Part shown: in pieces, positions 17,221-44,919 of the stretch | Layout: each line of letters opens with the position of its first letter | How positions within the stretch are numbered: the first letter of the stretch is position 1 | Source of the DNA: a virus | Reading direction: 5' to 3' (one strand) | IMG/VR virus record: IMGVR_UViG_3300000313_000159 | Coordinates: 1 to 44,935 of that record | DNA length: 44,935 nt | Notes under the pieces: model-generated | What the model saw: only the letters and a program-made list of their open reading frames with translations | Told to the model about the DNA's origin: nothing | Databases searched by the model: none | Translations under genes and position numbers: made by a program

Positions 17221-17343
17221 AGGGGCGTAACTGATAGAGCAAGAGACCGGATATTTGGTACAACTACAGTAGGTGAACGTGTCTATGGTGGGCGACGTGG
17301 TGCAAGCCGTGCCGCAAGCGCAAGCGGCTCAACTTCGGGTTGA
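17221..17343 (+). CDS. 40-residue protein with an AGG start
   Basis: AAGGAG (17209-17214) is followed after 6 nt by TGA AGG. Reading from AGG gives a 40-codon frame: GVTDRARDRIFGTTTVGE, then VYGGRRGASRAAS, then ASGSTSG and TGA. The in-frame stop lies directly upstream and no ATG, GTG or TTG occurs near the ribosome-binding site in this frame, so AGG is the best start; it matches nine other genes of this operon. The Gly/Ser/Arg/Ala-rich, partly repetitive tail suggests disorder. A different 39-codon frame (ATG 17285) overlaps it and is less convincing. Confidence 0.5.
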   Translation, partial: RGVTDRARDRIFGTTTVGERVYGGRRGASRAASASGSTSG

Positions 17344-17349
17344 GTTTCA

Positions 17350-17386
17350 GGCGCTGTGGCATGTAACAGTACTGCAGCGCCTTTCT
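17350..17386 (+). terminator. Hairpin with short T tract, possible weak terminator
   Basis: GGCGCTG (17350-17356) pairs with CAGCGCC (17375-17381) over an 18-nt loop, followed by TTTCT. Another hairpin, CTCAAC/GTTGAG with a TTCGG loop, precedes it at 17328-17344. The loop is long and the T tract short, so partial termination or RNA processing is as likely as true termination. Confidence 0.35.
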
Positions 17387-17400
17387 AAAGAGATGGAACA

Positions 17401-17607
17401 ATGATAAAGTTAATTGTACCAGTAGAAACAGTTTTATCCGTAAAGCAGTGTGAATGTGGTGGATTCTTTGATACGCAGGTAGGACAACGTTATTTTGGTG
17501 AAAAGAACATGGCGGCTGAATTCAAGTGCAATAAATGCGGAAAAATCGTTATGCTTACAGAAGATGATTTTCCTAAAGTGAAATATCGTTATAAAACTGA
17601 AAAATGA
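17401..17607 (+). CDS. Zinc-ribbon protein
   Basis: 68 residues with two knuckles: QCECGGFFD near 17 and FKCNKCGKIVML near 41, the usual CxC/CxxC layout of a small zinc ribbon. The stop overlaps the next ATG (AAATGAAAAC). Small zinc ribbons adjacent to PAPS-reductase-like genes recur in phages; role unknown. Confidence 0.6.
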   Translation: MIKLIVPVETVLSVKQCECGGFFDTQVGQRYFGEKNMAAEFKCNKCGKIVMLTEDDFPKVKYRYKTEK

Positions 17608-18245
17608 AAACAAATATTTATGACGCAATAAATCGTATATCTACACTTTCTAATCCTGTTATAGTTGCGTTCTCTACCGGACGGGACAGTATAACGATGC
17701 TTGATTTAATGATGAAGCATTATAAGGGTGAAATGAAATTTGTTTATTACTATTTTGTACCAAACCTTGAATATAAAGAAAAACTGCTGCGCTATTATGA
17801 GCATAAATACAAGATAGAGATAATCCGTAAGCCGTCATGGTCTACTTTAACATACACATTAGGAAAGAAAATAGAACAGGGCGATGTTATGCGGATGACA
17901 AGGCATGATCTGGGAATATCATATATTGCTTTAGGTATGCGCCGCTGTGAATCACTGACAAGACGCGGGATTCTTGCAGGAATAAAAGATGTAGACGAAA
18001 AGTACAAGTATTATTATCCGATTATCGAATTCACTGAAAAACAGGTCGCAGCATATGTAAAAATGAATAATCTCCCGACTGGCGGCGAGTATCAGGAAGG
18101 ATTCAAACATGATTTATCGGTACCGGACAATTACGGACTGCTTTATATAAAGAATAACTATCCGGCGGACTATCAGAAAATTATACGGACATTTCCAGCA
18201 CTGGAAGCAGGAATTAAAAGAATAGAGTTTTATGGAGATAAATAA
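17604..18245 (+). CDS. PAPS-reductase-like ATP-pyrophosphatase-fold protein
   Basis: 213 residues. The PP-loop SxGxDS motif appears as FSTGRDSITML near residues 23-33. HDLGISYIALGMRRCESL near 98-115 and the closing YYPIIEFTEKQVAAYV near 134-149 follow the adenine-nucleotide alpha-hydrolase fold of phage PAPS-reductase-like proteins. The common pairing with a ParB-like gene just upstream of terminase is present here. In phages these are suspected of modifying DNA or nucleosides; the substrate is not readable. Confidence 0.75.
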   Translation: MKTNIYDAINRISTLSNPVIVAFSTGRDSITMLDLMMKHYKGEMKFVYYYFVPNLEYKEKLLRYYEHKYKIEIIRKPSWSTLTYTLGKKIEQGDVMRMTRHDLGISYIALGMRRCESLTRRGILAGIKDVDEKYKYYYPIIEFTEKQVAAYVKMNNLPTGGEYQEGFKHDLSVPDNYGLLYIKNNYPADYQKIIRTFPALEAGIKRIEFYGDK

Positions 18246-18247
18246 AA

Positions 18248-18703
18248 ATGGATGAACTAAATGAATTTCAAAAAGAACAAATAAAACTTATCAGTTGCCA
18301 TTCTCGATATTCCATAAAAGATGTTACAGTGATTTATCTAAAATGTAGTAAAAGTTTTGATAAAACAGAAAAATACATTAATTACTTAGATATATATAAT
18401 ACGACAGATTCTTTTTTGTGTACGAAGGTTTACAAAGTAAATGGAGTATGTACGGGGATAGATATTTGTGTTTTAGATGATGTTGTACATATAACTGATG
18501 AAAATGGAAATGAACATGAATTACATAATTGTAACTCTGTTTTTTTAGAAAACTGCAGGAAACTAAAAAAATGGTTTCATAAAAAACATGATAAATTTTC
18601 TGTTTTTGCAAAATATTATATAGATAATAATACAGAAATGCTTACTTCTATTACGGAGGTAAAAAAAAGTAAATTGGATAAACATGATGTAGATGTATAT
18701 TAA
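18248..18703 (+). CDS. Hypothetical protein, 151 residues
   Basis: A Lys/Asp/Asn-rich soluble protein starting MDELNEFQKEQIKLIS. The middle GVCTGIDICVLDDVVHITDENGNEHEL looks like a beta-hairpin region with several Cys nearby. It starts two bases after the previous stop. No family was recognised. Confidence 0.5.
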   Translation: MDELNEFQKEQIKLISCHSRYSIKDVTVIYLKCSKSFDKTEKYINYLDIYNTTDSFLCTKVYKVNGVCTGIDICVLDDVVHITDENGNEHELHNCNSVFLENCRKLKKWFHKKHDKFSVFAKYYIDNNTEMLTSITEVKKSKLDKHDVDVY

Positions 18704-18718
18704 CAAAAGAGGCAAAAA

Positions 18719-19477
18719 AGGAACGGAGCAAATAAATACGAAAACTTTGAAAACAAAGTTGTAAAGCGAAGTGAACTTCATTTCGCAGATTATAATCCTC
18801 GTGTTATAACGGACAGTGCACGGAACAAACTAAAAAGGTGGTTCAAAGAAAAGGGCAAAGGACAGCTTGCGCCTATTACGGTAAATCAGCGGACAATGAA
18901 CGTTGTTTCCGGCCATCAGCGACTTTCTGTTCTTGATTTGCTGCTGAAATACCCTGAAAATGACTACAATCTCACCGTAGCAATGACGGATCTTGACGAG
19001 AAAACCGAAGTCGAGGCAAACGTATTCATGAATAACAAGTCTGCGCAGGGAGATTTTGACTATGATATGCTCGGACAGCTGCATGATATGTTCCCGGACA
19101 TTTCATTTACTGATGATTTCGGCTTTGATGAGTCGGAAGTATCGCTGATGCTGAATGATAAAGGTGATGACATTGCTGCTATGATGGGTGATTCGCCCGA
19201 AGCGGATACTGTCGTTCAGGAAGCGAAACAATTCACTGCAGAAGATTTTCACACAAACCGGAAGAAAGAACTCACCAAAATAAAAGAAAATGCAAAAACA
19301 GACGGAAGTATTGACCTTGAAAAAGATGATTTCATGATAACGATTGTTTGTAAAAATAATGAAGAAAAGCACACTATTATGAAGCTTATGCATGAGAAAG
19401 AGAACGAAAAATATATCAAGAGTTTCAAACTTTATGATATATATGACCATAAAATTAAACTGAGGGAATTGTCATGA
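18719..19477 (+). CDS. ParB-like protein with an AGG start
   Basis: 252 residues if read from AGG 18719. The N-terminal ParB/Srx fold begins VVKRSELHFADYNPRVI (about residues 14-30) and continues with PITVNQRTMNVVSGHQRLSVLD (about 52-73), the usual nucleotide-binding segment. The first ATG in frame (18896) lies inside this domain, so it cannot be the true start. AAGAGG (18708-18712) is 6 nt before AGG and an in-frame TAA lies at 18701. It works beside the PAPS-reductase-like gene. Its stop overlaps the TerS start. Confidence 0.8.
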   Translation, partial: RNGANKYENFENKVVKRSELHFADYNPRVITDSARNKLKRWFKEKGKGQLAPITVNQRTMNVVSGHQRLSVLDLLLKYPENDYNLTVAMTDLDEKTEVEANVFMNNKSAQGDFDYDMLGQLHDMFPDISFTDDFGFDESEVSLMLNDKGDDIAAMMGDSPEADTVVQEAKQFTAEDFHTNRKKELTKIKENAKTDGSIDLEKDDFMITIVCKNNEEKHTIMKLMHEKENEKYIKSFKLYDIYDHKIKLRELS

Positions 19478-20058
19478 GTAAATCCATAATCAAACCGTGG
19501 GACAGACAGAAAGGTGAAAGTGCGCTAAGGTTCAGATATTTTACGGAGTACTTGAACGCCGGAGTTGTCAGAAAAATTGTAGATGTCGCAAAAAAATATA
19601 GCAAATCAGAAGGATATATATACAATATTTCCCGCGATTATAAATGGATGGATCGCGCTGATAAATATGACGCTTATCTTCACGAAGAAAAGAAAAAAGC
19701 AGATTTGAAGGCAATAGCCGACATGAATAATGATGTCATAGAGAAGAGCCATGCAGTACGTTTTATTGTCGGTAAGAAAATAAAAAGCGTACTGTCAGCA
19801 ATTCAGGCAGCAGGTGATGACCAGAAACGAATAGATGAAATACTCAAGAATGTTCCGATTACCGCATTATCAGATATGCTTGAAAAGTCATTTGAACTCG
19901 AAAGAAAAGCACTTGGTGTACCGGACGACGGTACGACAATAAACGTGACTAATACAACAAATGTTGATACTTGTCCGAAGCCTGATTTGAACAACCTGTC
20001 GCTTGAACAGCTGAAACAACTCAAAATAATAAAGGACTTGGCGACAAAGGCAAAATAG
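19474..20058 (+). CDS. terS: Terminase small subunit
   Basis: 194 residues, ATG start overlapping the ParB-like stop. The N-terminal part (ESALRFRYFTEYLNAG, then VDVAKKYSKSEGYIYNISRDYKWM) is the helix-turn-helix that recognises the packaging site. The helical centre promotes oligomerisation, and the C-terminal LNNLSLEQLKQLKIIKDL helix is typical of contact with TerL. The assignment rests on HTH, length and the immediately following TerL gene. Confidence 0.8.
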   Translation: MSKSIIKPWDRQKGESALRFRYFTEYLNAGVVRKIVDVAKKYSKSEGYIYNISRDYKWMDRADKYDAYLHEEKKKADLKAIADMNNDVIEKSHAVRFIVGKKIKSVLSAIQAAGDDQKRIDEILKNVPITALSDMLEKSFELERKALGVPDDGTTINVTNTTNVDTCPKPDLNNLSLEQLKQLKIIKDLATKAK

Positions 20059-21568
20059 CGGACTAACAGATTCAGACATTCTTGATTTCTCTGATGCAGC
20101 TATAGAAAAAGCGATAATCCGCAAAGATCATCTTGCTTTTATCCAGCAATGCTGGCAAAAACCAGACGAAAGCTACAAAGTCGGTATACATACAAAAGAA
20201 ATATGCTGGCTCATAAACAAGGCGATGGAAGATTTTAGAAATGAAAAATCAACGTTCTTGATTATTAAAGTACCTTTCCGGCACGGAAAATCAGAAATAA
20301 TTTCTGATTTCCTTCCTGAACATTTTCTAGGCGAATTCCCTGATAAGGATGTAATGATTGTCACCTACGCTGCAGACCTTGCATACGGATTTTCTGGTTT
20401 TGCACGAGATATCGTAAAAAATGACGAACATTTTCATGAACTTTATCCTGATATTCATATAAAACATACTATGGGAGGAATACAGAAGTGGGGAATTGAA
20501 GGACATACAGGAAAATGTATAGCTTCAGGGCTTACATCTGGAATAACAGGCAAAGGATACGCACTTGGTATTCTTGATGATTTTTGTGCCGGACGGCAGG
20601 ACGCTGAAAGTCAGGTTATCAGAGACAGCACATGGAATACCGTATCAAATGACTTTCTTTCACGGCGTGCCCCTATATCAATAACAATTATTCTTGCAAC
20701 ACCGTGGCATGTAGATGATGTTATTGGAAGAATAGAACAGTGTATAAATCCAAAGAGCGATAAATATAATCCCAAATTTCCACCATTTCAGGTTGTTACG
20801 CTTCCTGCAATGGATGGAGATATCATGGTTCATGACTATGACACAGGAGAATTGAAGCGTGCTCAATACAAATTTCTTTTTCCGGAACGATTTCCGCCTG
20901 AATGGTATGAACAGCAGAGAGCAACTCTTGGCGAATATGGAACAGCTTCATTGTTGCAGTGTAATCCGCAGATACGCGGCGGAAGGATGATTAAGCTCAA
21001 TAAAATCCAGTACCATGATACAATAGCAGATTTCCCGAAGGTTATGTTTACGCGGTTATGGGATCTGGCTCATACGGAAAAACAGACACAGAAAAACGAT
21101 CCGGACTGGACAAGTGGAACACTGCTTGCATATACACAACGTAACGGATTATGGGAATTATGGATTAAAGATGTTGGCCGATTTCGGGAGGATGCGCCAC
21201 AGCGTGACAGAATGATACGCGCGGTGACAGATAAAGATGGGCAGGGTGTCCCGATTGTTATTGAATCGTCTGTCGACAGCAAGGATGCGTATAAAACAAT
21301 GCGTGAGATACTTATGGGAAAGCGGATAGTACAACCGCTTCAGACCGGAAAAGACAAAGTAGTCCGCATGTCTCCCGTATTACCGATTTTTGAGGCTGGT
21401 AATGTTCATGTTCTACGTTCTGAATGGAATTATGACTGGCTGCGGGAGCTGAATGATTTTCCGTCCGGCTCACATGATGATCAGGTTGATAATATTTCTG
21501 CAGGGTTCATGTGGTATGAAGCGAATGCAGGAGCAGTAATCTCTACTTCTCCCGTTGCTTTCTCTTGA
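20048..21568 (+). CDS. terL: Terminase large subunit with an AGG start
   Basis: 506 residues from AGG 20048. The packaging ATPase has Walker A VPFRHGKSE near residue 75, Walker B GILDDF near 174, and an RNase H-like nuclease with WDLAHTEK near 338 and SHDDQVDN near 475. The first in-frame ATG (20225) would remove about 59 residues, including QNSGLTDSDILDFSDAAIEK and the helix before Walker A. AAGGA lies 11 nt upstream of AGG 20048. A second in-frame AGG directly after the TAA at 20030 (position 20033) is an alternative. It overlaps the TerS end by 11 nt. Confidence 0.88.
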   Translation, partial: RQNSGLTDSDILDFSDAAIEKAIIRKDHLAFIQQCWQKPDESYKVGIHTKEICWLINKAMEDFRNEKSTFLIIKVPFRHGKSEIISDFLPEHFLGEFPDKDVMIVTYAADLAYGFSGFARDIVKNDEHFHELYPDIHIKHTMGGIQKWGIEGHTGKCIASGLTSGITGKGYALGILDDFCAGRQDAESQVIRDSTWNTVSNDFLSRRAPISITIILATPWHVDDVIGRIEQCINPKSDKYNPKFPPFQVVTLPAMDGDIMVHDYDTGELKRAQYKFLFPERFPPEWYEQQRATLGEYGTASLLQCNPQIRGGRMIKLNKIQYHDTIADFPKVMFTRLWDLAHTEKQTQKNDPDWTSGTLLAYTQRNGLWELWIKDVGRFREDAPQRDRMIRAVTDKDGQGVPIVIESSVDSKDAYKTMREILMGKRIVQPLQTGKDKVVRMSPVLPIFEAGNVHVLRSEWNYDWLRELNDFPSGSHDDQVDNISAGFMWYEANAGAVISTSPVAFS

Positions 21569-21574
21569 TAAAAA

Positions 21575-21584
21575 CGCACGTGCG
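21575..21584. promoter_or_regulatory. CGCACGTGCG palindrome after terL
   Basis: A perfect ten-base palindrome of the phage-wide CGCACRTGCG family, between terL and the small gene at 21600. No convincing promoter accompanies it. It may be a roadblock site, an orphan operator or an RNA hairpin. Confidence 0.45.
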
Positions 21585-21599
21585 AATTACAATTGATTT

Positions 21600-21887
21600 A
21601 TGAAATACAGAGAAAAAAACTACGCTACCGCAAGAGAGCGCAGAATAAAAATTCTTGGTGACAAAACAATGGAAGGGCGTATACCGCGCCGCAGCTGGAA
21701 GCGGTACCGGAAAACGCAATACAAGATATTAAATGCTGAATACCCTGTAAAAGTTATACTGCCAGATATAGAATGGGGTTTTGTGATATCCAATTTAATG
21801 AATTTAAATTTATCTGATTATATTATTGGCAGCAGACGAATAAGGCATGTTCAAAAGCAGTGGGAGCTGGGATTTGATAATGATTAA
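21600..21887 (+). CDS. Small basic protein between terL and portal
   Basis: 95 residues, ATG start, highly basic N-terminal half (MKYREKNYATARERRIKIL, then RIPRRSWKRYRKTQYK). The ribosome-binding site is weak. It may bind nucleic acid. No family was recognised. Its end is separated from the portal start by the AAGGAG of the latter. Confidence 0.5.
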   Translation: MKYREKNYATARERRIKILGDKTMEGRIPRRSWKRYRKTQYKILNAEYPVKVILPDIEWGFVISNLMNLNLSDYIIGSRRIRHVQKQWELGFDND

Positions 21888-21899
21888 AAGGAGTTGTAA

Positions 21900-23360
21900 A
21901 GGTCAATAGATACAAGATGCGAAGAATATGAAAAACATATTATGACATGGAAAAAATGTCGTGATGTTATTGCAGGAGAGGAAGCAGTAAAGCTCGCACG
22001 CGATACATATCTTCCCCGTTCCGGCGGCATGGAAGATGATGAATATGATGAGCTTATAGGTCGAGCTGAATTTTTCAATGCAACAGGTCGGACTCTTGAT
22101 GGGCTTCATGGAATGTTATTTCGCATTAACCCTACTATAGGGGAAAAAAACGAAGAAAAGAAATACAAAGATTATTTTGAAAATGTTGACGGTAAAGGAC
22201 GAGATTTAAAGCAGTTTATATCAGATTCTGTAAAGGATATTCTCACAACTGGCTGGGGTGGAATTCTTGTGGAGGCACCACAGAACGGGGATAAAATAAG
22301 TCAGGGTGAAGCAGAAAAAAATAATGTTTATCCATATCTTGCCTATTATCGTGCAGAAGATATTCCTAACTGGCGAACAGAAACACGTGGACGGGTAGAA
22401 GTCATAATTCTTGTAGTGTTGCAGGAATGTGAGTTTGTGGTATCAGAAGATGGATTTGACGTAGTGCGACATGACAAGAAGCGTGTTCTTGATTTAGACG
22501 CTGAACGTAATAATTTTTACAGACAGCGGGTTTATATCGACGGTAAACTTGATTCCGTTACTTACCCTACAATGTTCGGAAAACCTATGAAATTTATTCC
22601 GTTTTATTTTTCGTCAACACATCCAGAAGAACCAATGTTGCTTGATTTAATAAATGTAAATCTTGCATGGTACCGGAAAAGTGCTGACTACGAACGAGGA
22701 TTGCATTATACGTCTGTTCCAACCCCATATACAACCGGATTCACACCGACTGGTGAGGTAAAAATCGATAAAGACGGAGCACAGCATATAGAAGCAGTCC
22801 AGCCTATAAAATTGAGTCCCAATAAGTTCATTCACTTTCCTAACGGATGTACCGGAGCTGGAATGCTTGAATATTCCGGTGCTGGAATGAACAGTGTAAA
22901 AACGGCAATGGAAGACGATGAAGAGCGTATGGCTATTCTTGGCGCGCGCATTATTAGTGCTGAAAAAAAAGGTGTCGAGGCGGCGGATACTGCTAAAATA
23001 CACAGGCAGGGAGAAAATAGTGTACTTGCAGCATTCGCAAACAATCAATCAAAGGTTACAACACAATATGATAATGTTTATCTGCAATGGTGTATGTCTG
23101 CACATGATATTAATGTGCCGATCGGTATTAATACCGACTTTGATATATCCGGTATGGCTCCTGCAGAACTTACCGCATTTGTTGCAGCGTGGCAGGCTGG
23201 AGGAATAAGCAAGCGTGTATTATTCTACAATCTGAAGCAGGGCGAAAAAACTCCACCGGATTACTCATTCGACCAGATGCAGGCAGATCTTGAAAACGAA
23301 GCACCGAAGGATACAGATATAAATATGAATAATAAAAAGCCACAGGAGGCGGACGCATGA
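21900..23360 (+). CDS. Portal protein (DUF4055 type) with an AGG start
   Basis: 486 residues from AGG 21900. AAGGAG (21888-21893), a 6-nt gap, and an in-frame TAA directly before AGG leave no conventional start until ATG 21942. Reading from AGG gives SIDTRCEEYEKHIM, then TWKKCRDVIAGEEAVKLA, the usual opening of DUF4055 phage portals. The body holds the long helical and clip regions and ends with a disordered tail. The portal forms the dodecameric DNA gateway at one capsid vertex. Family assignment is from overall pattern and position after terL. Confidence 0.85.
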   Translation, partial: RSIDTRCEEYEKHIMTWKKCRDVIAGEEAVKLARDTYLPRSGGMEDDEYDELIGRAEFFNATGRTLDGLHGMLFRINPTIGEKNEEKKYKDYFENVDGKGRDLKQFISDSVKDILTTGWGGILVEAPQNGDKISQGEAEKNNVYPYLAYYRAEDIPNWRTETRGRVEVIILVVLQECEFVVSEDGFDVVRHDKKRVLDLDAERNNFYRQRVYIDGKLDSVTYPTMFGKPMKFIPFYFSSTHPEEPMLLDLINVNLAWYRKSADYERGLHYTSVPTPYTTGFTPTGEVKIDKDGAQHIEAVQPIKLSPNKFIHFPNGCTGAGMLEYSGAGMNSVKTAMEDDEERMAILGARIISAEKKGVEAADTAKIHRQGENSVLAAFANNQSKVTTQYDNVYLQWCMSAHDINVPIGINTDFDISGMAPAELTAFVAAWQAGGISKRVLFYNLKQGEKTPPDYSFDQMQADLENEAPKDTDINMNNKKPQEADA

Positions 23361-23575
23361 TAATAGTTAAAACAGGTGATATGTTGCTACGCGGAAAACA
23401 GCGGTATGAGGTTGTAATTGCAGATGATAACATTTTTGTTATTTGCAAAGTCCGTTACAGCAGGAAAGAAGGCTGCGATATTATGGATTTCAGACATACT
23501 GAAATATACGGCAACCAGAGTGAAATGAATACGCTTGATGATTTGCATTTCAATGTTATCAGTCTTAAAAAATGA
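23357..23575 (+). CDS. Small protein after portal, unknown
   Basis: 72 residues, start overlapping the portal stop (GCATGATAAT), stop overlapping the next start. A predicted small beta-rich fold: MIIVKTGDMLLRGKQRYEVV, then NIFVICKVRYSRKEG. It may be a head accessory protein by position; no family was recognised. Confidence 0.5.
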   Translation: MIIVKTGDMLLRGKQRYEVVIADDNIFVICKVRYSRKEGCDIMDFRHTEIYGNQSEMNTLDDLHFNVISLKK

Positions 23576-23796
23576 TTTTCCGTATTATTGATTCGATACA
23601 TAATAAAGATTCCGCAGCGGAGAAACGTAAAAATGCACTAACTGGAAAATGTAAAAGTCCAAAAGTGGTAAGAAGTGAAATATCCGGCGCTTTTATTGTG
23701 GTGTTGTGTGAATCAAAAAGCAGAGATGAAGCAAATAAAGCACGGAAATATTTCAGAAAAAATGGTATTCCAGCAGAATTACAGGTAGTAAAATAA
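23572..23796 (+). CDS. Small basic protein, unknown
   Basis: 74 residues with overlapping ends on both sides. A basic stretch, DSAAEKRKNALTGKCKSPKV, is followed by SGAFIVVLCESKSRDEANKA and a C-terminal IPAELQVVK strand, suggesting a compact alpha/beta fold. No family was recognised. Confidence 0.5.
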   Translation: MIFRIIDSIHNKDSAAEKRKNALTGKCKSPKVVRSEISGAFIVVLCESKSRDEANKARKYFRKNGIPAELQVVK

Positions 23797-31007: not shown

Positions 31008-33857
31008 AGGGCAGATGAAACATCACGGCTTGTACTTGAAATTGACTCAAACGGTGTTGTAACCGCTACTGGGAATCTTGATAAATTCACAGCGGCAGCG
31101 GATAAAGCGCAGAAAGGCGCAACTGATTTAGGTAAATCAAAGGAAGGTTTCTCTTCTCTCAAGGGTAATATAAAGGATGTTGTATCAGCAGTATCTGGCG
31201 TTGTTCTTGCATTCAAAGCAGTAGTAAATGCAGCTAAAGCTGCTATTACTTTTACTGTATCTTCAATTGACGCGCTCGGTGAATACGAATCAATTCAGGC
31301 AAATCTTACAACTGTATTCAATGGGAATAAGGATGCTGCAGATACACTTTTCAATAAAGTAAAGCAGCTTGCTGCAGTAACTCCGTTTGATACGGCAGGA
31401 CTTGCAAGTGCAGCAGTACAATTGAAACAGACAGGTACCTCTGTTTCAGAGATGATTCCGACCCTGAAAATGCTCGGAGATGCTGCAGGCGGCGACGCTG
31501 ACAAGTTCCAGCGGATTGTATTAAATTATGCACAGATTCAGTCAGTCGGAAAAGCGGCTACAATCGATATGAAGCAGTTTGCGCAGATGGGATTACCTGT
31601 ATATGACCTCATGAAAAAAATGGGCATTCAGGGAAATGCAACTTCTGCTCAAGTTACTGAAATGTTCAAACAGATGACCAGCGCTGGAGGAACGTTCTAC
31701 AACGGCATGGGTACGCAGTCTCAGACTCTCAACGGTAAAATGAGCACTTTGAATGATACTTGGAAAGATTATAAAGCGACGCTTGCAGATACATCAGGGC
31801 TTGGTTCAGCATGGAAGAAGATCATGGATGAAATGACAAAATCCATTCAGGATCAGACTGATGCAATGAACGAACGCAATAAACATTCTACCGCCACAAA
31901 AGCATATGAAAACGGTACTGCAACAAATGAACAGACTGTTGTTGCTCTCACAGATCAGATGAATACCCTTATTGCAAAACGGAAGGAAGTCTCCGATGAA
32001 ATGCAAAAGAAAGGTTTTATTACGCCTGCTGATGAAAAAATAATCTCTGATTATACGAATGAAATAGAATCTCTCAATGCAGAAATAAACAAATACAATA
32101 ATCTTGCTAAGCAGGAATCAGGCGCAAAATCTAAGAGTGAGGCAATACAGGAGATTGTAGATAAAAATAACAGTGCCGTTGATACAGCTATGAGTACTGT
32201 GAATGAAATATATAAAGAATCTACACAGGGGCAAAAAGAAGAAATTCAGAAACAAATTAAACAGTTAGAAGATTATAAAAAGCTTAGCCGTTCTATATCT
32301 TTCAAAGATAATAAGGGAAATAATATTTTCATTAGAACAGAAGGTTTGTCAGCAGATGAAATTAAAAAAATTGATGCAGCAATAGTATCGCTCCAAAAGA
32401 AACTGAGTAATACAAAAAATCTTACTGACTGGCAGAAAATAATGAAAGAAGCTTTCAAATTTTCTGATAGTGATTTTAAATTCTTAGATACAGGAATAAC
32501 CGCTGTTAATGAATACACACGGCGTATGGATGACGCTGTTGAAAGCCAGAAGAAATTTTATTCACTGATAGATACTGGAAAAAAACAATCCGAAGTTGAT
32601 AAAGATTATGAAAGTATTTTGCAGAATGCTTACGACAATGAAGTTGGTGCGCTTAAAACATTTATGGAAAGTGGTAAATGGGATGGATCAGAAGCTTCAA
32701 TTAAATTATTTATTGAAAATATAAACAAAGCAAAAAAAGCACTCGACAACGCAAAACAGACAACAGCCATAGACTCTCTTAAAGATCAGAACAGTCAACT
32801 TCAGAATATTCTTGATTCAACCGACAGCTGGGCTGATAAACTGCTCCATATAAAGGCCATACAGGAAGGTATAACCGATGCTGAATATGACACATGGGCA
32901 GCAGAACAGAAAAAAAATGATAAACTGACAAAACAGGTAAACAATCAATATGACATGAAAAATATGTCAGCATCTGATTATGGAAAATATGCAGGGAATA
33001 CTGCAGCAAACAGCTTATCAGGTGATGCAGGAACCTTTGTTAAGACATGGCAGCAAACCGGAAACTGGATGCTTGCAATAATAAGCACTGTTATCGGGGC
33101 ACTTATAAATGTTGCATCAGAATTTGATAATTTTGATGATGCAATGAATCCCGTTACAAGACTTTTTGAACGGGCACGACCGTTTATAGGTAATCTCTTA
33201 ACTGCTGTAGTATCACTCGAAGATGTAATGAATGATATGTTTACACCTTTGATGGCGTTATTTAATATACTTAGCATTGTAGTCGATGTGATACGCCCAA
33301 TTCTTGAATATATCACAAATCCCTTAAAAGATGTTATGTCATGGCTTACTGATAAACTTGAAGAGTGGGGACTTGTAACAGATGATGTTTCGGATGAACA
33401 GGAAGAAGAAGCAGAACGTCTTAAAGAACTGAATGATCTGTATCAATCTCTAACAGAAGCTATAGATGAACAGGAACAGTATTACTTAAAGAAGAGGCAG
33501 CAGCTTAATTCGGAGACATATAACGAGAATGTAAGCAGTCAGAGTGTAAACGATATGATTCTCACTCCATCCGGTAATTTTTCGACTCACCCCGACGACT
33601 ATATTATTGCTACAAAGGATCCGTTTTCATTAAATGAAAACAGTGGAACGAATGTTTCCATTTCAGTTCAGATAAACAACACTGCAAGTGACACCGTGAC
33701 AGCCACAACGGAAGAATCGACGGGTGACGACGGCATAACTCAACTGGTTGTAAATATAAGTAAAAAAGTTGCGTCTGATTATGCAAGCGGAACAAATGGA
33801 TGGGATACTGCAATTGATTCGAATAATTTACGAAGAAAGGGTAGGAGTGTATCATGA
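31008..33857 (+). CDS. Tape measure protein with an AGG start
   Basis: 949 residues from AGG 31008. The chaperone stop TAA (31005-31007) is in frame and directly before AGG; AGAGGA (30995-31000) gives a 7-nt spacing. The N-terminus reads ADETSRLVLEIDSNGVVTATG, then NLDKFTAAADKAQKG, typical of tape measures. The first conventional start in frame is ATG 31422, 138 codons later, past a hydrophobic helix and the conserved DALGEYESIQANLTTVF segment. The body has long Lys/Gln/Glu coiled coils and hydrophobic segments near 680-750. It sets tail length and probably helps DNA entry. Confidence 0.88.
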   Translation, partial: RADETSRLVLEIDSNGVVTATGNLDKFTAAADKAQKGATDLGKSKEGFSSLKGNIKDVVSAVSGVVLAFKAVVNAAKAAITFTVSSIDALGEYESIQANLTTVFNGNKDAADTLFNKVKQLAAVTPFDTAGLASAAVQLKQTGTSVSEMIPTLKMLGDAAGGDADKFQRIVLNYAQIQSVGKAATIDMKQFAQMGLPVYDLMKKMGIQGNATSAQVTEMFKQMTSAGGTFYNGMGTQSQTLNGKMSTLNDTWKDYKATLADTSGLGSAWKKIMDEMTKSIQDQTDAMNERNKHSTATKAYENGTATNEQTVVALTDQMNTLIAKRKEVSDEMQKKGFITPADEKIISDYTNEIESLNAEINKYNNLAKQESGAKSKSEAIQEIVDKNNSAVDTAMSTVNEIYKESTQGQKEEIQKQIKQLEDYKKLSRSISFKDNKGNNIFIRTEGLSADEIKKIDAAIVSLQKKLSNTKNLTDWQKIMKEAFKFSDSDFKFLDTGITAVNEYTRRMDDAVESQKKFYSLIDTGKKQSEVDKDYESILQNAYDNEVGALKTFMESGKWDGSEASIKLFIENINKAKKALDNAKQTTAIDSLKDQNSQLQNILDSTDSWADKLLHIKAIQEGITDAEYDTWAAEQKKNDKLTKQVNNQYDMKNMSASDYGKYAGNTAANSLSGDAGTFVKTWQQTGNWMLAIISTVIGALINVASEFDNFDDAMNPVTRLFERARPFIGNLLTAVVSLEDVMNDMFTPLMALFNILSIVVDVIRPILEYITNPLKDVMSWLTDKLEEWGLVTDDVSDEQEEEAERLKELNDLYQSLTEAIDEQEQYYLKKRQQLNSETYNENVSSQSVNDMILTPSGNFSTHPDDYIIATKDPFSLNENSGTNVSISVQINNTASDTVTATTEESTGDDGITQLVVNISKKVASDYASGTNGWDTAIDSNNLRRKGRSVS

Positions 33858-34210
33858 TAGCTTTTGCAAATTGTACATATAAAGTTTTGCGGGATACAAG
33901 TTGGGATTTACCACAGGGGTTTATTGCAGAACAAACACGTAGCGGAGCAAGAAAAGTACGTGCAGCAAACACTGAAGAACCGGATTCGTTCAGTGTAGTA
34001 CTTCAATTTCCGACCGTTTCTGATTACCGGATATTCAAAACGTGGTATGAAGTTACAGACCGCCGCGGAACACTTTCCTTCGCTTTTCCTGAAATAGACA
34101 ATAACAGTGGGACATTAAAAGAATATAGATTTGCAGATGGCGGTGCACCACAGGGGAATAATGTCTCTGGTGAAATTATAAAAGTTTCTATGAAATGGGA
34201 GGCAGTGTAA
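33854..34210 (+). CDS. Minor tail protein, 118 residues
   Basis: ATG start overlapping the tape-measure stop (TCATGATAGC). A beta-rich small protein: CTYKVLRDTSWDLPQGFI, then KTWYEVTDRRGTLSFAFPE near 63-81, ending VSMKWEAV. The order tape measure, this gene, DUF1833-type, NlpC/P60, hub corresponds to lambda M-L-K-I-J positions, so it is probably the M-like distal tail protein. Family assignment is from position and the W-Y-x-F-x-F strands. Confidence 0.65.
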   Translation: MIAFANCTYKVLRDTSWDLPQGFIAEQTRSGARKVRAANTEEPDSFSVVLQFPTVSDYRIFKTWYEVTDRRGTLSFAFPEIDNNSGTLKEYRFADGGAPQGNNVSGEIIKVSMKWEAV

Positions 34211-34690
34211 AGGTCTTTAAGCAACAAAGCAAAACATGAAATGCTCGTCCAAAAAACACGGGCAAAATTCCCGTATATCATTGAAATAGTAAACGAAGAC
34301 CTCGGTGTTTTCCGCTATGCAAATAGCAGCAAGGATGTAGCTTTTGAAGGAAATACATTTACTGCAGGTCTTTTTTCAGTAACACCGCCGGAACGTACAA
34401 CAACTTCCATAAGTAATGCAAAACTGTCCATTTCATGCGTCGATCAGACATGGATTGATAAAATCCGCAGTACACAGAAAAGAAGCACCTGCCGTTTCAT
34501 AGCAACAATTATTTATGACACTGATAATGATACTACAATATGTGAGGCGATAGAGGACAATTCATTTACACTTACATCTGCCACATGGGATGATTCAAAT
34601 ATTTCATGGGATATGGAATTCGATGACAGATTGACCGTCCTCGTTCCGGTTGATATAGGTTCGAGCCAAAATTGCCCGGGGTGTGCATGA
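34211..34690 (+). CDS. DUF1833-type minor tail protein with an AGG start
   Basis: 159 residues from AGG 34211. GGGAGG (34197-34202) is 8 nt upstream and the previous gene's TAA, in the same frame, directly precedes AGG. The N-terminus reads SLSNKAKHEMLVQKTRAKFP, then YIIEIVNEDLGVFRYANSS. FTAGLFSVTPPERTTTSIS near 50-68 and the C-terminal Cys pair (NCPGCA) match the DUF1833/lambda L-like group of tail-tip proteins; the cysteines may bind a metal or Fe-S centre as in lambda gpL. Starting at ATG 34241 would cut the first helix. Overlaps the next gene. Confidence 0.78.
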   Translation, partial: RSLSNKAKHEMLVQKTRAKFPYIIEIVNEDLGVFRYANSSKDVAFEGNTFTAGLFSVTPPERTTTSISNAKLSISCVDQTWIDKIRSTQKRSTCRFIATIIYDTDNDTTICEAIEDNSFTLTSATWDDSNISWDMEFDDRLTVLVPVDIGSSQNCPGCA

Positions 34691-35085
34691 TGATTTGTGT
34701 ACGTGATTTAGTAGGCTGTCCGTATAAAGTACACGGACGTAATAAAAGTGAAGGGTTTGACTGTTACGGACTTGCAATGGAAGTTGAAAGCAGAGCAGGA
34801 AAAAGAATTCCTGATTTTGTATATAACGATACTGATCTAAAATCAAACGAACAGACTGCAGAACTGCTTTTTGAAGGAATTTCTGCAAAAAAATTAAACA
34901 GACCTGAGCCGTATTGTCTTATTGCAATAAACATCGCTGAAAGTCCATCTCACATTGCTGTATATCTTGGCGGCGGTAAGATTATACATAGTACACAATC
35001 ATATGGTGTACATGTATCAAACATTGAAAGATATTCAAATAGAATATATGGTTATTATAGAGTTTTGGAGCATATTGAAGGATAA
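34687..35085 (+). CDS. NlpC/P60 tail-tip peptidase
   Basis: 132 residues from ATG 34687, which overlaps the preceding TGA. NlpC/P60 signature: GFDCYGL near 22-28 supplies the catalytic Cys, SHIAVYLG near 88-95 the His, and the following KIIHST segment the third polar site. As in lambda gpK-type proteins, it probably cleaves peptidoglycan cross-links during DNA entry. It ends overlapping the AGG start of the hub gene. Confidence 0.85.
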   Translation: MMICVRDLVGCPYKVHGRNKSEGFDCYGLAMEVESRAGKRIPDFVYNDTDLKSNEQTAELLFEGISAKKLNRPEPYCLIAINIAESPSHIAVYLGGGKIIHSTQSYGVHVSNIERYSNRIYGYYRVLEHIEG

Positions 35086-38000
35086 CAGTAAACGTTTATA
35101 AAGATGCATTCAGCAATAAATTCGACACATATCATCCTGAAAGCGGGAAAACGCTCGAAGGATTATTTAAATATATAGATTTTGCAAACTCTCTTATTTA
35201 TTGCAACGGAAATCCGGTAGATGAAAATCATGTATTAAAGGAAAATGACCTGATTTGTATACGGACATTTCCATCCGGTGACAACGGGGGAGAGGTTGCC
35301 GAAAATATAGCTGGATGGATTTTTGCACCTGTGACATCTCTTGTTACAAGCATTGTTTCATGGAGTAAAGGTTATTCGAGCTACGGGTTAGGCAGTAATA
35401 TAAAAAATGGCCTTTTAGACTGGATAAAATCTGCATTAAGTACATCTTCAAACAACAGCTCTACATCTACCACAGATACGCGCCCGTCAATAAAAGGTGC
35501 AAATAATACGACTCAATACGGTCATGCATTTCCGCTTGTTATAGGTCTTTCCAGATATTACCCTATGTGGTGCGGTACCGGATATACAGAAATATCCGGT
35601 GAAGATGGAGAAGATCAATATTATAACGTTCTCTGGATGCTCGGTTATGGTGATTTGGCCGTTGGAGCAATGAAATTCGGGGAAATTGATCTTGCAAGTA
35701 ATGGATTTACCGAAAAATATATAAATGGAAAATATACCCTTGATATAGGTGATTATGTTGAAAATGGAACAATTCCGATAGACGGGGCAGAAAAATATCA
35801 GGGAAATACATCACTGGAAATACAAAGCGGTGCAACTGAAGTATCTCTTTATTCGCAGCGTGTTGTGCAGGAAGATTTTGATTCTATTGAGCTTATCAAT
35901 GCCGATGGAGATGCTCTTGTTTCAGAGAAATTTTCTGCATACAATCCGCAGAAGATACAGGTTGAAATTTATTTTGCAAGTTTGTATTCATATAACGACA
36001 ACGGTGACATGCAGGATGCAACGGTGAATGTTAAACTTGAAATCAGTTTTGATGGCGGCAAGTCATGGATACCGTTTAACTCTTCTGGCTTTGCAAACTG
36101 CTCATCTTACGACTCATCTACAGGAATAAGTACATTTACCCGTGCAAAAAACAAAAATATGCGTTTTGTTGCAGAAAGAACGCTTACGTACAGTGAAGGA
36201 ACAACATGTACAAATAAGGTAGCACATATCAGAATCCAACGGACAAATGCCGAAGCAACAGACAGTAAAACATCTGATAAGGTATATATGTCCGCATTCA
36301 GGACATGGGTATTTGACAGAACAAAAACACTTGCAGCAGGTTCTTTTGTTGTACAACGACCTGTTATAGAGACAAAACGTGATATTACCGTCCGTCTTGG
36401 TATGAGGATAAAGGCAACATCAAGTATCAAAGATGAACTTGATTCGTTCAATTGTATGCTTGAGGCGAAATGTCGGACGTGGGATTCATCTACATCTTCA
36501 TGGAGTACTACAAAAACTCCGACCGATAATCCCGCGGCAAACATTATCAATACATCCGAATCTCCAATGCTCAAGACAAACAAACTTACTGATAATAACT
36601 GGGATATGGAAAAGCTCGGTGAATTGTATGAATACTGCAAGGAAAAAGGTTTTACATGCGGCGGCGTACTTACGTCACAAAAAAAGCTAGTCGATGTTAT
36701 AGACACGATACTTGGTACTTGCCGTTCATACAGGATACTCAACGGGAATAAATATTCCGTATTCATCGATAAACCGATTGATATACCTACAACAACTCTG
36801 AACAATCATAATATTCTGAAAAGTGGAAATTCCAACGAAAAAGAATTTCCAAAAGAAATAGATGGATACAAAATAAAATTCATCAATAAAAATAACGGAT
36901 ATGATGAAGATGAAATGTACGTCATGTATGACGGGAAAAATGCTGACGACCCTGACGCTGTTATAGAGTCAGTTGATTTCACGTGGCAGACAGACCCTGA
37001 CCAAGTATATAAAAACGGGCGTTTTGAACAGGCAAAACGTAAACTCCGGCCGGAAACATGGATAAGACATGTCGCACAGGACGGAAATATTATCGAAGTA
37101 GGTTCTCTGGTGCCTATTCAGGGTGATATGATTCTTGTCGGGATTGGAAACGGCGGTGAGATAAAAGAAATATATGAAAGCGGCGGATATATAACCGGAT
37201 TCAGAACAGACGGATATATAAACATCGGAGATACATCAAAGACATACGGTGTAAAAATAAATCATTCCGATGGAGTAAATGCCCCGGTTATCAGTGTATA
37301 CAGGCTCTCCATAACATCAGCAGGATATTATAATCAGTTTACTTTTGCATCTCCGATTCTTGCCACTGATAAAACTGCGCCATGTGTCGGAGATATTGGC
37401 AGTTTCGGTATTTATGGAAACGAAACAATCGATACAGTCTGTTTCGGAAAAAAAGAGATTGGTGACGGAACATTCACGCTGACATTTATTCCATATGATG
37501 AAGATATATATAAGGCAGATAGTGGAACAATACCAGATTTTGACAGTAAGGTAACAAGCGTGCAGCCTGTTGCAGGAGTACAGGAAATACCTGCTGAGTA
37601 TGCTACAAAATCAGACATTGCAAGCTCTGTTGCGAAATTAACAAATGGAACGGAAACAATAGCATCGTCAGACGTACCGTCAAATATTGTCGCCACTGCA
37701 GGGATAAGCGGAATAACCATGTCCTGCGGCGCATTCGGCTCAGGGCTTAAAAATACAATTGCAGAGATATACTGGCAAATAAAGAAGGGAAATTCAGCCA
37801 GCTGGATTGATATAGGAACCAGTCCTGATTTAAGCTTTACCTATAATTTTGATAGAGCGTCAGATGGGTATCTTGAAGCATCAGTTCTTGCTATATGGCA
37901 GATCAGGGCAAAAGCAGAAAATATTTACGGAGCTGTATCTGATTACAGTAATCCTGTTTATACCTCGGTTGATACATACGGAACGTGGACAACTGCTAAA

Positions 38001-40364
38001 CCGATTGTCCTGATGGTAGCTGAAGAAAATGGTCTGGTTATAACATGGACATATTCAGCACCTTCCAATTTTTACGGCAATGTAAAATTTATCCCTATTC
38101 TCAAATACAATGGGATACAGCGAACAATGGCTGACGCTTACGGAAGAAGTGCGGAATATACGTTTGACCGAACTTTAGACAAATATCCTGAGAAACATGC
38201 AAATGTGAAAACAGGGGATACAGACCTTTCATTATACACCCTCGTTATCAGAGCTCAAAATACAGCAAGCGGCGGCTATAAAGACAGTACTGCCATATCA
38301 CCTGACGTAAGCAGTTATCTGTCGTGGCATGTTTCAGCTCCTGTTATTCAGGCATCGGTAGTTGGTCGTAATATTACGTTAATTTTATCACAGAATGCGG
38401 ATGTTTACGGTACGATAAAATATAGGACTCAGATAAAAAAACTATCTGCAACCGCTGATACAGCGTATCACAAACCGGATTTATCTACAGATCCATATAG
38501 TGCAGTTCTTTCATATAAGATAGCCAATAATACCGGATATGTCGAAACATCTGGTACATTTTCTCAAACTGTGCCTTTGAATGGGCAAAATGATACAGAC
38601 CCCGCACCAGTTGCAACTTCTTACAGTTATAGTGTTGCAGCAGCAAATGAAGCTGGAGCTGGCAGTTCATCGACAGTTGTAGTGACTGCATTAGCTGCAG
38701 GTGCTACCGATATTGTCAATGAATCTGTATCAGAATCAAAACTTACAAATGAAGCTGTAACAGCGCGGACGATTGCAGCTTTTGACTTGGCGGCGACAAA
38801 GGCGTATATTTCAAAGATTGCAGGTAATAAAGGTGCTGACGCTAACAACTATTGGAACGGTCTTGACGGTATAACACCTGAATTCCGAATAGGTAATAAT
38901 GTTTCATTAGAAACGGACGAAAATGACGATGCAGAATATTTTCATTATATCCCCATTGCAGAAACGACGGGCTTAAAACGTGCTGCAGGTTTGTACATGA
39001 AGATAAAGAACTTCATAGTTTCCGCTGTTGCTTCTATCGTGCTTGGCTTATTCCGCGTTAAGAAAAAGGGCGCGGCTGATTCTGCCAGCTTTATGACGGT
39101 TAATCCGACTGACTCCGCTGACAGCATAACCGGAACTCCTGTGCAGACGGTAAATATAAAAGGCGATGTACGGGCATTGTCATATTACACAAACGGCAAA
39201 CTTCTCCCCAGGTACTTTATACTGGATTTATCAACACTCTCTGCAAGCAATTTTTATCCGATTACATTTGGGGCAGGTGATTTTTCTGTACTCAACTGCG
39301 AAATACATTCACCTTCTACAGGTGGAGCGGCAACCTATAACCAGAATGTCATACATTTCCAGCTTATCGCAGCTGGCTGGAGCGATACCCCGAAACGTTT
39401 TGATGTACTGCAGTATGGTGTATATGACAGCAACGAAATAACAATCGGCTGCATCGGATATGGTAATAAAAACGGAGAACGCTGCGTGTGGCTGCGAGGA
39501 GGAATGGTGTACTGTCTTTACTGCAATGCAGAACCGACACTACATACAGCAGCTTATTCGTATGGCAGTAGTAGCACCGAAGTATATACAGTTGGAACAG
39601 ATTATTTTGGTGGGACAAATACAAATGTGACAATTATCTGGACGCCTGATACAAGTTTTACAGGATATCACTATGGATCACATAAAATAACTAATAACCT
39701 TACCGTCATCGGTGGAATAACGGGAAACCTCACCGGCAATGCAGATACGGCAACCAGCGCTGATAAAGTAAAGTTTATTACTGACTCTCAATTTGATGAT
39801 GATGCAACAGGAGACCCGGGATTAAAAGCAGTTTATAATAACAGTCTTATAGATACTAAATCTGATCCGATGATTGCTGTGAGAAGAACTGACGGATATG
39901 GTGGTGCGTTTATTTTTGATTATTCCAATGATAAATTATATTTTTATACACTCAAACCCTCTTTTTCCTCAACTAATTCAAGAATGATCCATCAAATCTT
40001 GGTTGATAATACAATGCCCGTCGGAGCTGTTTATATACAAATGAAGGGGCAAATTGATCCGGCTGCACTTTTCGGAGGAACATGGAGCAATGTGTCTTCC
40101 TTATATTCCGGTGCCTTCTTCCGTGCTGAAGGTGGTAATGCTTCTACGTTTGGAAGTGAGCAACAAGATATGATGCTCCAATCGCATAGCCATACAATTG
40201 GTGCTAATAATATATCACTCCGATTGTCCGGATTAACAAATAATGGTATTAGAATTATGCAACGAGAGGGTGATGGAAATGCGGTATGGAGTACAGATTC
40301 TGTAGGAAGTACAGAAACACGACCAATAAATTATACTATAAGAATTTGGAAACGGACAGCATAA
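35079..40364 (+). CDS. Tail hub/receptor-binding protein with an AGG start
   Basis: 1761 residues from AGG 35079. GGAG (35067-35070) is 8 nt upstream and an in-frame TGA directly precedes AGG; the first conventional start, at 35331, would lose 84 residues. Those residues (ITVNVYKDAFSNKFDTYHPE, then LICIRTFPSGDNGGEV) look like a small ubiquitin-like beta-grasp domain followed by a Gly-rich linker and amphipathic helix. The centre is a J-like hub with fibronectin-type segments (about 860-1200). The C-terminus is a tail-collar/fibre tip: PVGAVYIQMKGQIDPAALFGG, later SHSHTIGANN and RPINYTIRIWKR. It contacts the cell surface. Confidence 0.85.
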   Translation, partial: RITVNVYKDAFSNKFDTYHPESGKTLEGLFKYIDFANSLIYCNGNPVDENHVLKENDLICIRTFPSGDNGGEVAENIAGWIFAPVTSLVTSIVSWSKGYSSYGLGSNIKNGLLDWIKSALSTSSNNSSTSTTDTRPSIKGANNTTQYGHAFPLVIGLSRYYPMWCGTGYTEISGEDGEDQYYNVLWMLGYGDLAVGAMKFGEIDLASNGFTEKYINGKYTLDIGDYVENGTIPIDGAEKYQGNTSLEIQSGATEVSLYSQRVVQEDFDSIELINADGDALVSEKFSAYNPQKIQVEIYFASLYSYNDNGDMQDATVNVKLEISFDGGKSWIPFNSSGFANCSSYDSSTGISTFTRAKNKNMRFVAERTLTYSEGTTCTNKVAHIRIQRTNAEATDSKTSDKVYMSAFRTWVFDRTKTLAAGSFVVQRPVIETKRDITVRLGMRIKATSSIKDELDSFNCMLEAKCRTWDSSTSSWSTTKTPTDNPAANIINTSESPMLKTNKLTDNNWDMEKLGELYEYCKEKGFTCGGVLTSQKKLVDVIDTILGTCRSYRILNGNKYSVFIDKPIDIPTTTLNNHNILKSGNSNEKEFPKEIDGYKIKFINKNNGYDEDEMYVMYDGKNADDPDAVIESVDFTWQTDPDQVYKNGRFEQAKRKLRPETWIRHVAQDGNIIEVGSLVPIQGDMILVGIGNGGEIKEIYESGGYITGFRTDGYINIGDTSKTYGVKINHSDGVNAPVISVYRLSITSAGYYNQFTFASPILATDKTAPCVGDIGSFGIYGNETIDTVCFGKKEIGDGTFTLTFIPYDEDIYKADSGTIPDFDSKVTSVQPVAGVQEIPAEYATKSDIASSVAKLTNGTETIASSDVPSNIVATAGISGITMSCGAFGSGLKNTIAEIYWQIKKGNSASWIDIGTSPDLSFTYNFDRASDGYLEASVLAIWQIRAKAENIYGAVSDYSNPVYTSVDTYGTWTTAKPIVLMVAEENGLVITWTYSAPSNFYGNVKFIPILKYNGIQRTMADAYGRSAEYTFDRTLDKYPEKHANVKTGDTDLSLYTLVIRAQNTASGGYKDSTAISPDVSSYLSWHVSAPVIQASVVGRNITLILSQNADVYGTIKYRTQIKKLSATADTAYHKPDLSTDPYSAVLSYKIANNTGYVETSGTFSQTVPLNGQNDTDPAPVATSYSYSVAAANEAGAGSSSTVVVTALAAGATDIVNESVSESKLTNEAVTARTIAAFDLAATKAYISKIAGNKGADANNYWNGLDGITPEFRIGNNVSLETDENDDAEYFHYIPIAETTGLKRAAGLYMKIKNFIVSAVASIVLGLFRVKKKGAADSASFMTVNPTDSADSITGTPVQTVNIKGDVRALSYYTNGKLLPRYFILDLSTLSASNFYPITFGAGDFSVLNCEIHSPSTGGAATYNQNVIHFQLIAAGWSDTPKRFDVLQYGVYDSNEITIGCIGYGNKNGERCVWLRGGMVYCLYCNAEPTLHTAAYSYGSSSTEVYTVGTDYFGGTNTNVTIIWTPDTSFTGYHYGSHKITNNLTVIGGITGNLTGNADTATSADKVKFITDSQFDDDATGDPGLKAVYNNSLIDTKSDPMIAVRRTDGYGGAFIFDYSNDKLYFYTLKPSFSSTNSRMIHQILVDNTMPVGAVYIQMKGQIDPAALFGGTWSNVSSLYSGAFFRAEGGNASTFGSEQQDMMLQSHSHTIGANNISLRLSGLTNNGIRIMQREGDGNAVWSTDSVGSTETRPINYTIRIWKRTA

Positions 40365-43100: not shown

Positions 43101-43129
43101 TTTTACCTCTGTCTACTTAACATAGCTCA

Positions 43130-43256
43130 CCATATCATTTGCTTAACCTGTAATTCCGGCCCGAAGGGATTGGCGTGAAAATTGCACCAAAGGAGCGCAG
43201 CGACGACTGCAATTTTCATGACAAAAGGAATTATCAGGTTGAAGCAGTTGTTGGAT
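43130..43256 (-). repeat. Integron attC-type recombination site
   Basis: Read on the minus strand: an R''-type ATCCAAC (43256-43250), TGCTTCAACC, a long imperfect stem with TGAAAATTGCA/TGCAATTTTCA in the middle, GGTTAAGCA, then a degenerate R'-type GATATGG (43136-43130). CCTGTAATTCC/GGAATTATCAGG also pairs. The ends, the two nested arms and the spacing match attC/59-be sites. It forms the 3' end of the cassette carrying the 43262 gene. Confidence 0.75.
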
Positions 43257-43261
43257 GCATC

Positions 43262-44749: not shown

Positions 44750-44794
44750 ATTTACTCTCCTTTGATTATCTTCTGCGCCGCGAAAGCGGCGTCC

Positions 44795-44919
44795 ATCCAA
44801 CATTCGCTTAACCCGCAACACCGGTCGCGCAGCGATTGGCGCAATTTGTGCTTGAGAGAGCGTAGCGAACGGCACAAATTGTGACAAAGGTGTTGTCGCG
44901 GTTGAAGCGTTTGTTAGAA
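44795..44919 (-). repeat. Integron attC-type recombination site
   Basis: Minus strand: TTCTAAC (44919-44913), an AAACGCTTCAACC arm, a paired interior (GCACAAATTG/CAATTTGTGC and CGACAACACC/GGTGTTGCGG), GGTTAAGCG, then R' GTTGGAT (44801-44795). GTTGGAT is the canonical GTTRRRY core and is the exact reverse complement of the R'' ATCCAAC of the next site, as expected for the two ends of one cassette. Confidence 0.8.

Follow-up and report, generated by a model that had tools for sequence, protein, structure and literature searches.

AGG codons at the start of late genes

The window, a virus record of 44,935 bases analysed over its full length, contains ten late genes with AGG in the position of the start codon. 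They encode mainly packaging, head and tail proteins and each AGG lies 3′ of a purine-rich site; ATG is retained in the early genes and in a number of further late genes. The initial annotation places all ten codons correctly, as well as the purine-rich sites upstream of them. The first is an open reading frame of 40 aa (17221..17343, on the plus strand like the other nine) with the Shine-Dalgarno (SD) sequence AAGGAG and a frame devoid of conventional starts; it gave no PHROGs match and, since no homologue was detected, the evidence for its AGG consists of the SD sequence and the context. It is followed by the genes for a ParB-like protein (18719..19477; phrog_9353) and the large terminase (20048..21568; phrog_38/4758), the next conventional start in the latter being at 20225. 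The portal gene (21900..23360; phrog_145) and the scaffold gene (24919..25656; phrog_206) both have the SD sequence AAGGAG, and their AGG is adjoined on the 5′ side by TAA and TGA, respectively. The major capsid protein gene (25670..26674; phrog_247) has the SD sequence AGGAG and the tail tube gene (28799..29977) has AAGGAG. In the tape measure gene (31008..33857) and in the gene for a minor tail protein, referred to as DUF1833 in the initial annotation (34211..34690; phrog_396), the TAA of the preceding gene adjoins the AGG, and the next conventional start of the tape measure gene lies 138 codons downstream. The last gene encodes the tail hub, a central tail fibre J-like protein (35079..40364; phrog_31 over residues 289-849), with the next conventional start 84 codons downstream.

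Several other features of the window may be mentioned. The gene order PAPS reductase, ParB-like protein, small terminase and large terminase (17604-21568) is similar in phages PJR4 and BS-TP2, and in Lactobacillus phage JNU_P7 (L143) the ParB-like gene is represented by two annotated CDS, likely due to a frameshift or misannotation. An ArdC-like anti-restriction protein (ArdcN plus zincin-like metallopeptidase) is encoded at 15267-16106. At the right end, on the minus strand (41856-44887), there are genes with FRG and HATPase domains, possibly a defence-like cargo pair.

The sequence context of the AGG codons is distinctive. Base −1 is A at all ten AGG sites, compared to 18 of the 37 ATG sites (Fisher P 0.0025), and the pattern Y-R-A, which was picked from the data post hoc, precedes nine of the ten AGG codons but only one of the 37 ATG codons (P 7e-8). 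The initial annotation had pointed out an in-frame stop codon directly 5′ of AGG in six genes, and indeed this is the case for 6/10 of them as opposed to 1/37 ATG genes of the window; the Y-R-A context would also explain why such stops are frequent. We scanned all sense codons for an SD sequence of at least 4 bases, Y-R-A and an open frame of at least 30 codons. On the plus strand this returned AGG 10 times, AAA 6 times, ATG 3 times and every other codon at most 3 times, the AGG hits being nine of the claimed genes and a chance site at 36412; on the minus strand the scan returned zero AGG sites. In the leaders of 29 late genes (from the stop to the first ATG, GTG or TTG) AGG accounts for 18 of 627 codons, nine of them with an SD sequence upstream, versus 27 of 7839 internal codons of late genes. 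A cruder test for SD-preceded AGG over whole frames gave a weak signal in late genes (12 observed versus 5.2 expected, P 0.0075) and no AGG enrichment in early genes, and a crude count of frames having AGG before the first conventional start did not separate the AGG-start phages described here from phages with ordinary CCU tRNAs.

Homologous N-termini and a related contig

The initial annotation stated that reading from AGG restores family-typical N-termini and proposed to align them with homologues that start with ATG. Such alignments agree with the claim. In the capsid alignment, SPP1 gp13, Bacillus phage 049ML003 and L002 all have their start ATG precisely at the AGG of the window; the portal AGG lies over the ATG of the Pseudomonas phage PMBT14 portal, and the ParB-like homologues of Riemerella phage PJR4 and Bacteroides phage BS-TP2 have their ATG at almost the position of the window AGG. 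Counted from AGG, PHROGs homology begins at residue 2 in both portal and capsid, and at residue 5 in the ParB-like protein. The N-terminus of the large terminase takes a similar position to those of ATG- or TTG-start homologues, less clearly than in the case of capsid and portal, while the N-termini of scaffold homologues are too diverse for alignment. The tail tube and DUF1833 proteins had no homologue among GenBank phages. When the tail tube was compared with 398 genomes of one phylum, 17 matched, mostly through the Ig-like repeat part; in one of them (L155) there is a distantly related tail module, which starts with ATG and lacks a tRNA.

A closer relative of the tail tube (40% identity) is encoded by L006, an IMG/VR contig of 7,220 bases and thus a fragment, as is L169 described below. 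Both the tail tube and the major capsid genes of L006 start with AGG. The L006 capsid belongs to phrog_283, matching from residue 3 to profile position 3, and could not be aligned with the window capsid of phrog_247; since both nevertheless start with AGG, this start has been either kept or gained across different PHROGs. The adaptor, neck and post-tRNA genes common to L006 and the window have ATG starts in both.

These data bear on the possibility that the AGG codons are not starts, that is, either the genes begin elsewhere or ATG has been misread in sequencing. The tail tube gene lends it some credence, because an in-frame ATG (28793) is present two codons 5′ of AGG 28799. However, this ATG abuts the SD sequence (0 nt), which makes the AGG the better start; the claim for this one gene out of ten thus holds, with the reservation that a conventional codon lies just upstream. 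Elsewhere the possibility is at odds with the in-frame stops directly 5′ of AGG, with homology reaching residues 2-5 in portal, capsid and ParB-like protein, and, as far as sequencing errors are concerned, with the same finding in the independently sequenced L006, L169 and CP084202. We therefore consider it very improbable. Taken together, the homologous N-termini, the AGG starts of L006 and the ATG-to-AGG substitution in the Akkermansia-type pair (see below) support AGG as the start codon of these window genes, as the initial annotation had proposed from the window.

A phage tRNA(CCU) with initiator features

The likely cause of the AGG starts, absent from the initial annotation, is the only tRNA gene found in the window. 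Its position in the late block is 3′ of the tail tube gene and 5′ of the gene that follows (30011..30081, plus strand); it is 71 nt long, has the anticodon CCU and does not encode CCA. It was detected with ARAGORN, which labels it tRNA-Arg, and has a score of 48.2 bits with Rfam RF00005. A perfect 8-bp hairpin (29984..30006, plus strand) lies directly 5′ of the tRNA and may represent a processing signal; its minus strand scores terminator-like. L006 encodes a tRNA(CCU) (42.1 bits) at the corresponding position 3′ of the tail tube gene, and likewise has a hairpin just upstream (L006:791-825, minus strand), which differs in sequence from that of the window and for which Rfam gives only a chance-level match to a CRISPR repeat.

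Two further phages, L169 and L179 (Akkermansia phage DTMo-2021a), encode similar tRNAs. All four have the anticodon CCU and not CAU, and share the anticodon stem pairs GGG:CCC (29-31:39-41), G2:C71, C3:G70 and A73. None of them has a Watson-Crick pair at 1:72, the mismatch being C1-U72 in the window, A-C in L006 and C-A in both L169 and L179; hence they lack the paired 1:72 expected of an elongator tRNA-Arg(CCU). According to the accessible part of PMC11231383, the two key features of initiators are the mismatch at 1:72 and the three G:C pairs, and an elongator given both becomes an initiator; the same two features are also named in the available text of PMC2268962 and PMC4611024. The D stem of all four tRNAs has U11:A24 in place of A11:U24, the latter being described as a secondary formylation determinant in the accessible part of PMC4611024; U11:A24 is also present in the phage CAU initiator of L181. 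A20 is absent, with C20 in the window and L006 and U20 in L169 and L179 (D-loops numbered by eye). Because of the CCU anticodon, we describe these tRNAs as initiator-like and do not file them as tRNA-fMet(CAU).

The tRNAs of the window and L006 differ in a way that preserves these features. Seven of 21 stem pairs carry replacements on both sides and are still paired. Position 1:72, in contrast, lacks a pair in either tRNA, through different bases, and no difference is seen within the 13 bases of the anticodon core (GGG-loop-CCC), including the loop CUCCUUU with U37. A nearest-neighbour ranking of the window tRNA gave a mixed outcome, with a tRNA-Thr in first place and a phage initiator in second; both had been retrieved in a BLAST search with the window tRNA as query. 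An unrelated observation concerning tRNA-Thr is that such a gene is contained in L043 (MT135301.1), a 5.8-kb Inovirus record marked 'UNVERIFIED'.

To see how rare such tRNAs are, we surveyed the ARAGORN tRNAs of the loci gathered plus the window, of which 835 out of 869 could be parsed; the sample is non-random, and one scan pattern enriched it in tRNA-Lys(CTT) with GGG:CCC. The 1:72 mismatch and GGG:CCC occur jointly in 2 of 793 non-CAU tRNAs, namely those of the window and L006, and in 4 of 42 CAU tRNAs. U37U38 is found in the same two among 835 tRNAs. Among the 14 CCU tRNAs surveyed, 1:72 is paired in the remaining 12 (T-G in one case), all of which have A37. ARAGORN found no CCU tRNA in the 25 loci L014-L038. 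On the basis of this non-random survey we reject a chance occurrence of the window tRNA.

A second system in Akkermansia-type phages

L169 was found by a scan for CCU tRNAs with U32. Its tRNA has C1-A72, GGG:CCC, G2:C71, C3:G70, A73 and the loop UUCCUGU, and lies 5′ of a portal gene for which AGG 5025 is a plausible start. Among GenBank phages, the L169 portal matched a single record, Akkermansia phage DTMo-2021a (CP084202.1), with 81% identity from AGG onward. DTMo-2021a has a tRNA(CCU) of the L169 kind at 12824, and its portal frame contains no ATG, GTG or TTG 5′ of AGG, the first one downstream being codon 58. The best non-self matches of the Akkermansia phage tRNA(CCU) include phage tRNA-Met(CAU) genes.

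Comparison with L169 identified five AGG starts in DTMo-2021a. Those of the portal (12921), of an unknown protein (20096) and of a tail-fibre-like protein (20795) are AGG in L169 too; the tail-fibre-like gene of L169 (12866) was counted as AGG despite an in-frame ATG 14 codons upstream. The large terminase (11403) and the capsid (15863) have ATG in L169, the two terminase starts being one codon apart. The capsid provides the clearest pair: ATG in L169 and AGG in DTMo-2021a are both followed by GCT AAT CTA TTT TAT, and in the aligned stretches, ATGGCTAATCTATTTTAT and AGGGCTAATCTATTTTAT, the difference is exactly ATG to AGG. Seven other candidates in DTMo-2021a (21117, 28905, 8626, 24151, 7653, 19984 and 10881) were not counted, as each lacked a homologue, a conserved frame or a need for AGG; the candidates at 21117 and 19984 overlap genes read in a different frame.

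The L169/DTMo-2021a pair is unrelated to the window and L006, so that the co-occurrence of tRNA(CCU) and AGG starts in four phages spans two phage families. This matters for the idea that host fMet-tRNA(CAU) starts weakly at AGG with the help of strong SD sequences, the phage tRNA being an ordinary tRNA-Arg(CCU) present by coincidence. Several window AGG sites do lie behind strong SD sequences, and other phages also carry CCU tRNAs. Yet the initiator features are jointly rare in the survey, both the tRNA and the AGG starts recur in the Akkermansia-type pair, where no SD sequence is present at the AGG sites, and the affected genes include that of the capsid, which needs high expression. This idea appears improbable to us.

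AGG inside genes and the base preceding the start

We next consider the meaning of AGG away from the start. When L169 is aligned to L179, the 27 internal AGG codons compared correspond to Arg in 24 cases, to Lys in 2, to His in 1 and to Met in none; in the reciprocal comparison (n=15) there are 8 Arg, 3 Lys and no Met. The 36 internal AGG codons of L006 aligned to the window correspond to 10 Arg, 9 Lys and 1 Met, and the four from the window aligned to L006 to 2 Lys, 1 Arg and 1 Tyr. Judging from these alignments, AGG inside genes remains arginine.

The alternative that AGG means methionine at every position, the phage following the code of its host as in the Bacilli genus UBA7642, has a precedent. 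In the accessible part of PMC8629427, such a code is described together with a tRNA(CCU) of methionine identity, and two phages are inferred to use it. According to the same text, AGG outnumbers AUG in the UBA7642 clade and reaches 209-235 per 10,000 codons, whereas in the window internal AGG is rare (27/7839 codons in late and 28/3836 in early genes). Moreover, Arg is found at 24/27 aligned positions for L169 and Arg or Lys at 19/36 for L006, as opposed to Met at 0/27 and 1/36. The internal counts and alignments rule out this alternative, and we find it scarcely credible.

The two systems also differ in base 37 of the tRNA and in base −1 of the mRNA. In phages with U37, A is at −1 in 12 of 12 AGG sites (ten in the window and two in L006). 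In phages with G37, C is at −1 in 7 of 8 AGG sites, the exception being the DTMo-2021a capsid with A, compared to 8 of 24 ATG genes of the same phages (P 0.011). The co-variation is significant (Fisher P 1e-4), with the proviso that sites in orthologous genes are not fully independent. It suggests that base 37 of the tRNA forms a fourth pair with base −1 of the mRNA, in which case the start word would effectively be AAGG (U37) or CAGG (G37). An analogous pairing of base 38 with base −2 was also considered; a purine is present at 11 of 12 U37 sites, but the pattern failed in the Akkermansia pair. AAGG start words look like an SD sequence. The anticodon loop of the window tRNA with the next base, CUCCUUUC (30041-30048), presumably equals a string within the anti-Shine-Dalgarno tail of 16S rRNA.

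Charging of the tRNA and a model of late initiation

The tRNA might initiate at AGG and carry Arg or another amino acid, resulting in formyl-Arg or the like, a scenario that overlaps with our preferred one. The anticodon CCU contains C35, which is an identity base of ArgRS. In addition, the available text of PMC2268962 reports that mutating the anticodon of the E. coli initiator brings in other synthetases, with GlnRS charging the CUA and ValRS the GAC mutant. On the other hand, the phage tRNAs keep A73, G2:C71 and C3:G70 and lack A20. In the accessible part of their article, Shulgina and Eddy (PMC8629427) assign the first three to methionine identity and A20 to arginine, and the AGG-to-Met tRNA of the Bacilli clade is likewise without A20. 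Met charging is favoured because of this combination, and we consider Arg or another amino acid unlikely, albeit a genuine contender.

Our preferred explanation, to which we assign a probability of roughly 0.87, is that a phage-encoded initiator tRNA(CCU) gives AGG a second meaning restricted to starts, most likely as a private channel for late genes. The tRNA would be charged by the host, probably with Met, and then formylated. IF2 and the 30S subunit would put it into the P site on AGG, where, as the co-variation suggests, base 37 may pair with mRNA base −1. Internal AGG would still be read as Arg by a host elongator tRNA, because initiators would be kept out of the A site. Translation of virion proteins would be low until the late transcript supplies the tRNA, and from then on it would be independent of host fMet-tRNA(CAU). 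The most likely role of the tRNA on the present sequence evidence is in a feed-forward initiation channel reserved for virion proteins, since its gene is part of the late block and the tRNA would act chiefly on genes for packaging and the virion. Escape from nucleases cutting the host initiator is a possible second benefit.

Relation to known systems and implications

To our knowledge, natural changes of the code affect elongation or termination. In phages that recode stop codons, suppressor tRNAs alter the decoding of late genes; the change there concerns elongation at stop codons, whereas in the phages described here it would concern initiation. Among phage initiators, tRNA-fMet(CAU) of Stenotrophomonas phage RAS14 (L181) is similar to the window tRNA in having the 1:72 mismatch, GGG:CCC, G2:C71, C3:G70, A73 and the 71-nt form with U11:A24, and the initiator of Xanthomonas phage X1 (L045) has GGG:CCC and a T-T mismatch at 1:72. 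Unlike tRNA-fMet(CAU), the tRNAs described here have CCU followed by U37U38 or G37U38 and are paired with AGG-start genes in the same genome. As a separate observation, tRNA-Met(CAU) of Mesorhizobium phage vB_MseS-P1 (L180:3000-3074) overlaps an annotated transcriptional repressor gene.

Engineered initiators begin translation at UAG, GUC and CAC, according to the accessible parts of PMC2268962 and PMC13232202. As in those E. coli constructs, a changed anticodon is found on an initiator body and the matching codon at the start of genes; unlike these laboratory products, the phage system is natural and its sense codon retains the elongation meaning. The UBA7642 clade, detected with Codetta, resembles the phages described here in having a tRNA(CCU) with methionine identity marks; however, as far as the available text of PMC8629427 goes, AGG there stands for Met wherever it occurs, an arginine elongator gave rise to the tRNA and the two phages are without such a tRNA, whereas here only the start position would change. 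Phages generally avoid tRNA-fMet where VapC cuts tRNA-fMet, according to the accessible part of PMC10264068. The nuclease-evading phage tRNAs treated there share an altered anticodon loop with the tRNAs described here but not the difference in the codon read. We found neither a natural initiator for AGG or another sense codon nor a phage-encoded changed initiator in the open-access literature, most subscription papers being outside the scope of the search.

Beyond the individual genes, we lean towards the broader view, with some reserve, that start recoding apart from elongation occurs naturally through phage initiator tRNAs with changed anticodons, uses effectively four-letter start words, opens a private channel of initiation for virion genes and has arisen in, or spread to, two or more unrelated groups of phages, Akkermansia, a gut commensal culturable in the laboratory, being the host of one group. 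If true, the start signal would be rewritable in nature without loss of the codon's established meaning within genes, which would account for late genes that have been missed or shortened in annotation. It would further provide a natural orthogonal initiation system usable in protein engineering and, for the phages themselves, a novel means of gating late expression or of evading attacks on the host initiator tRNA.
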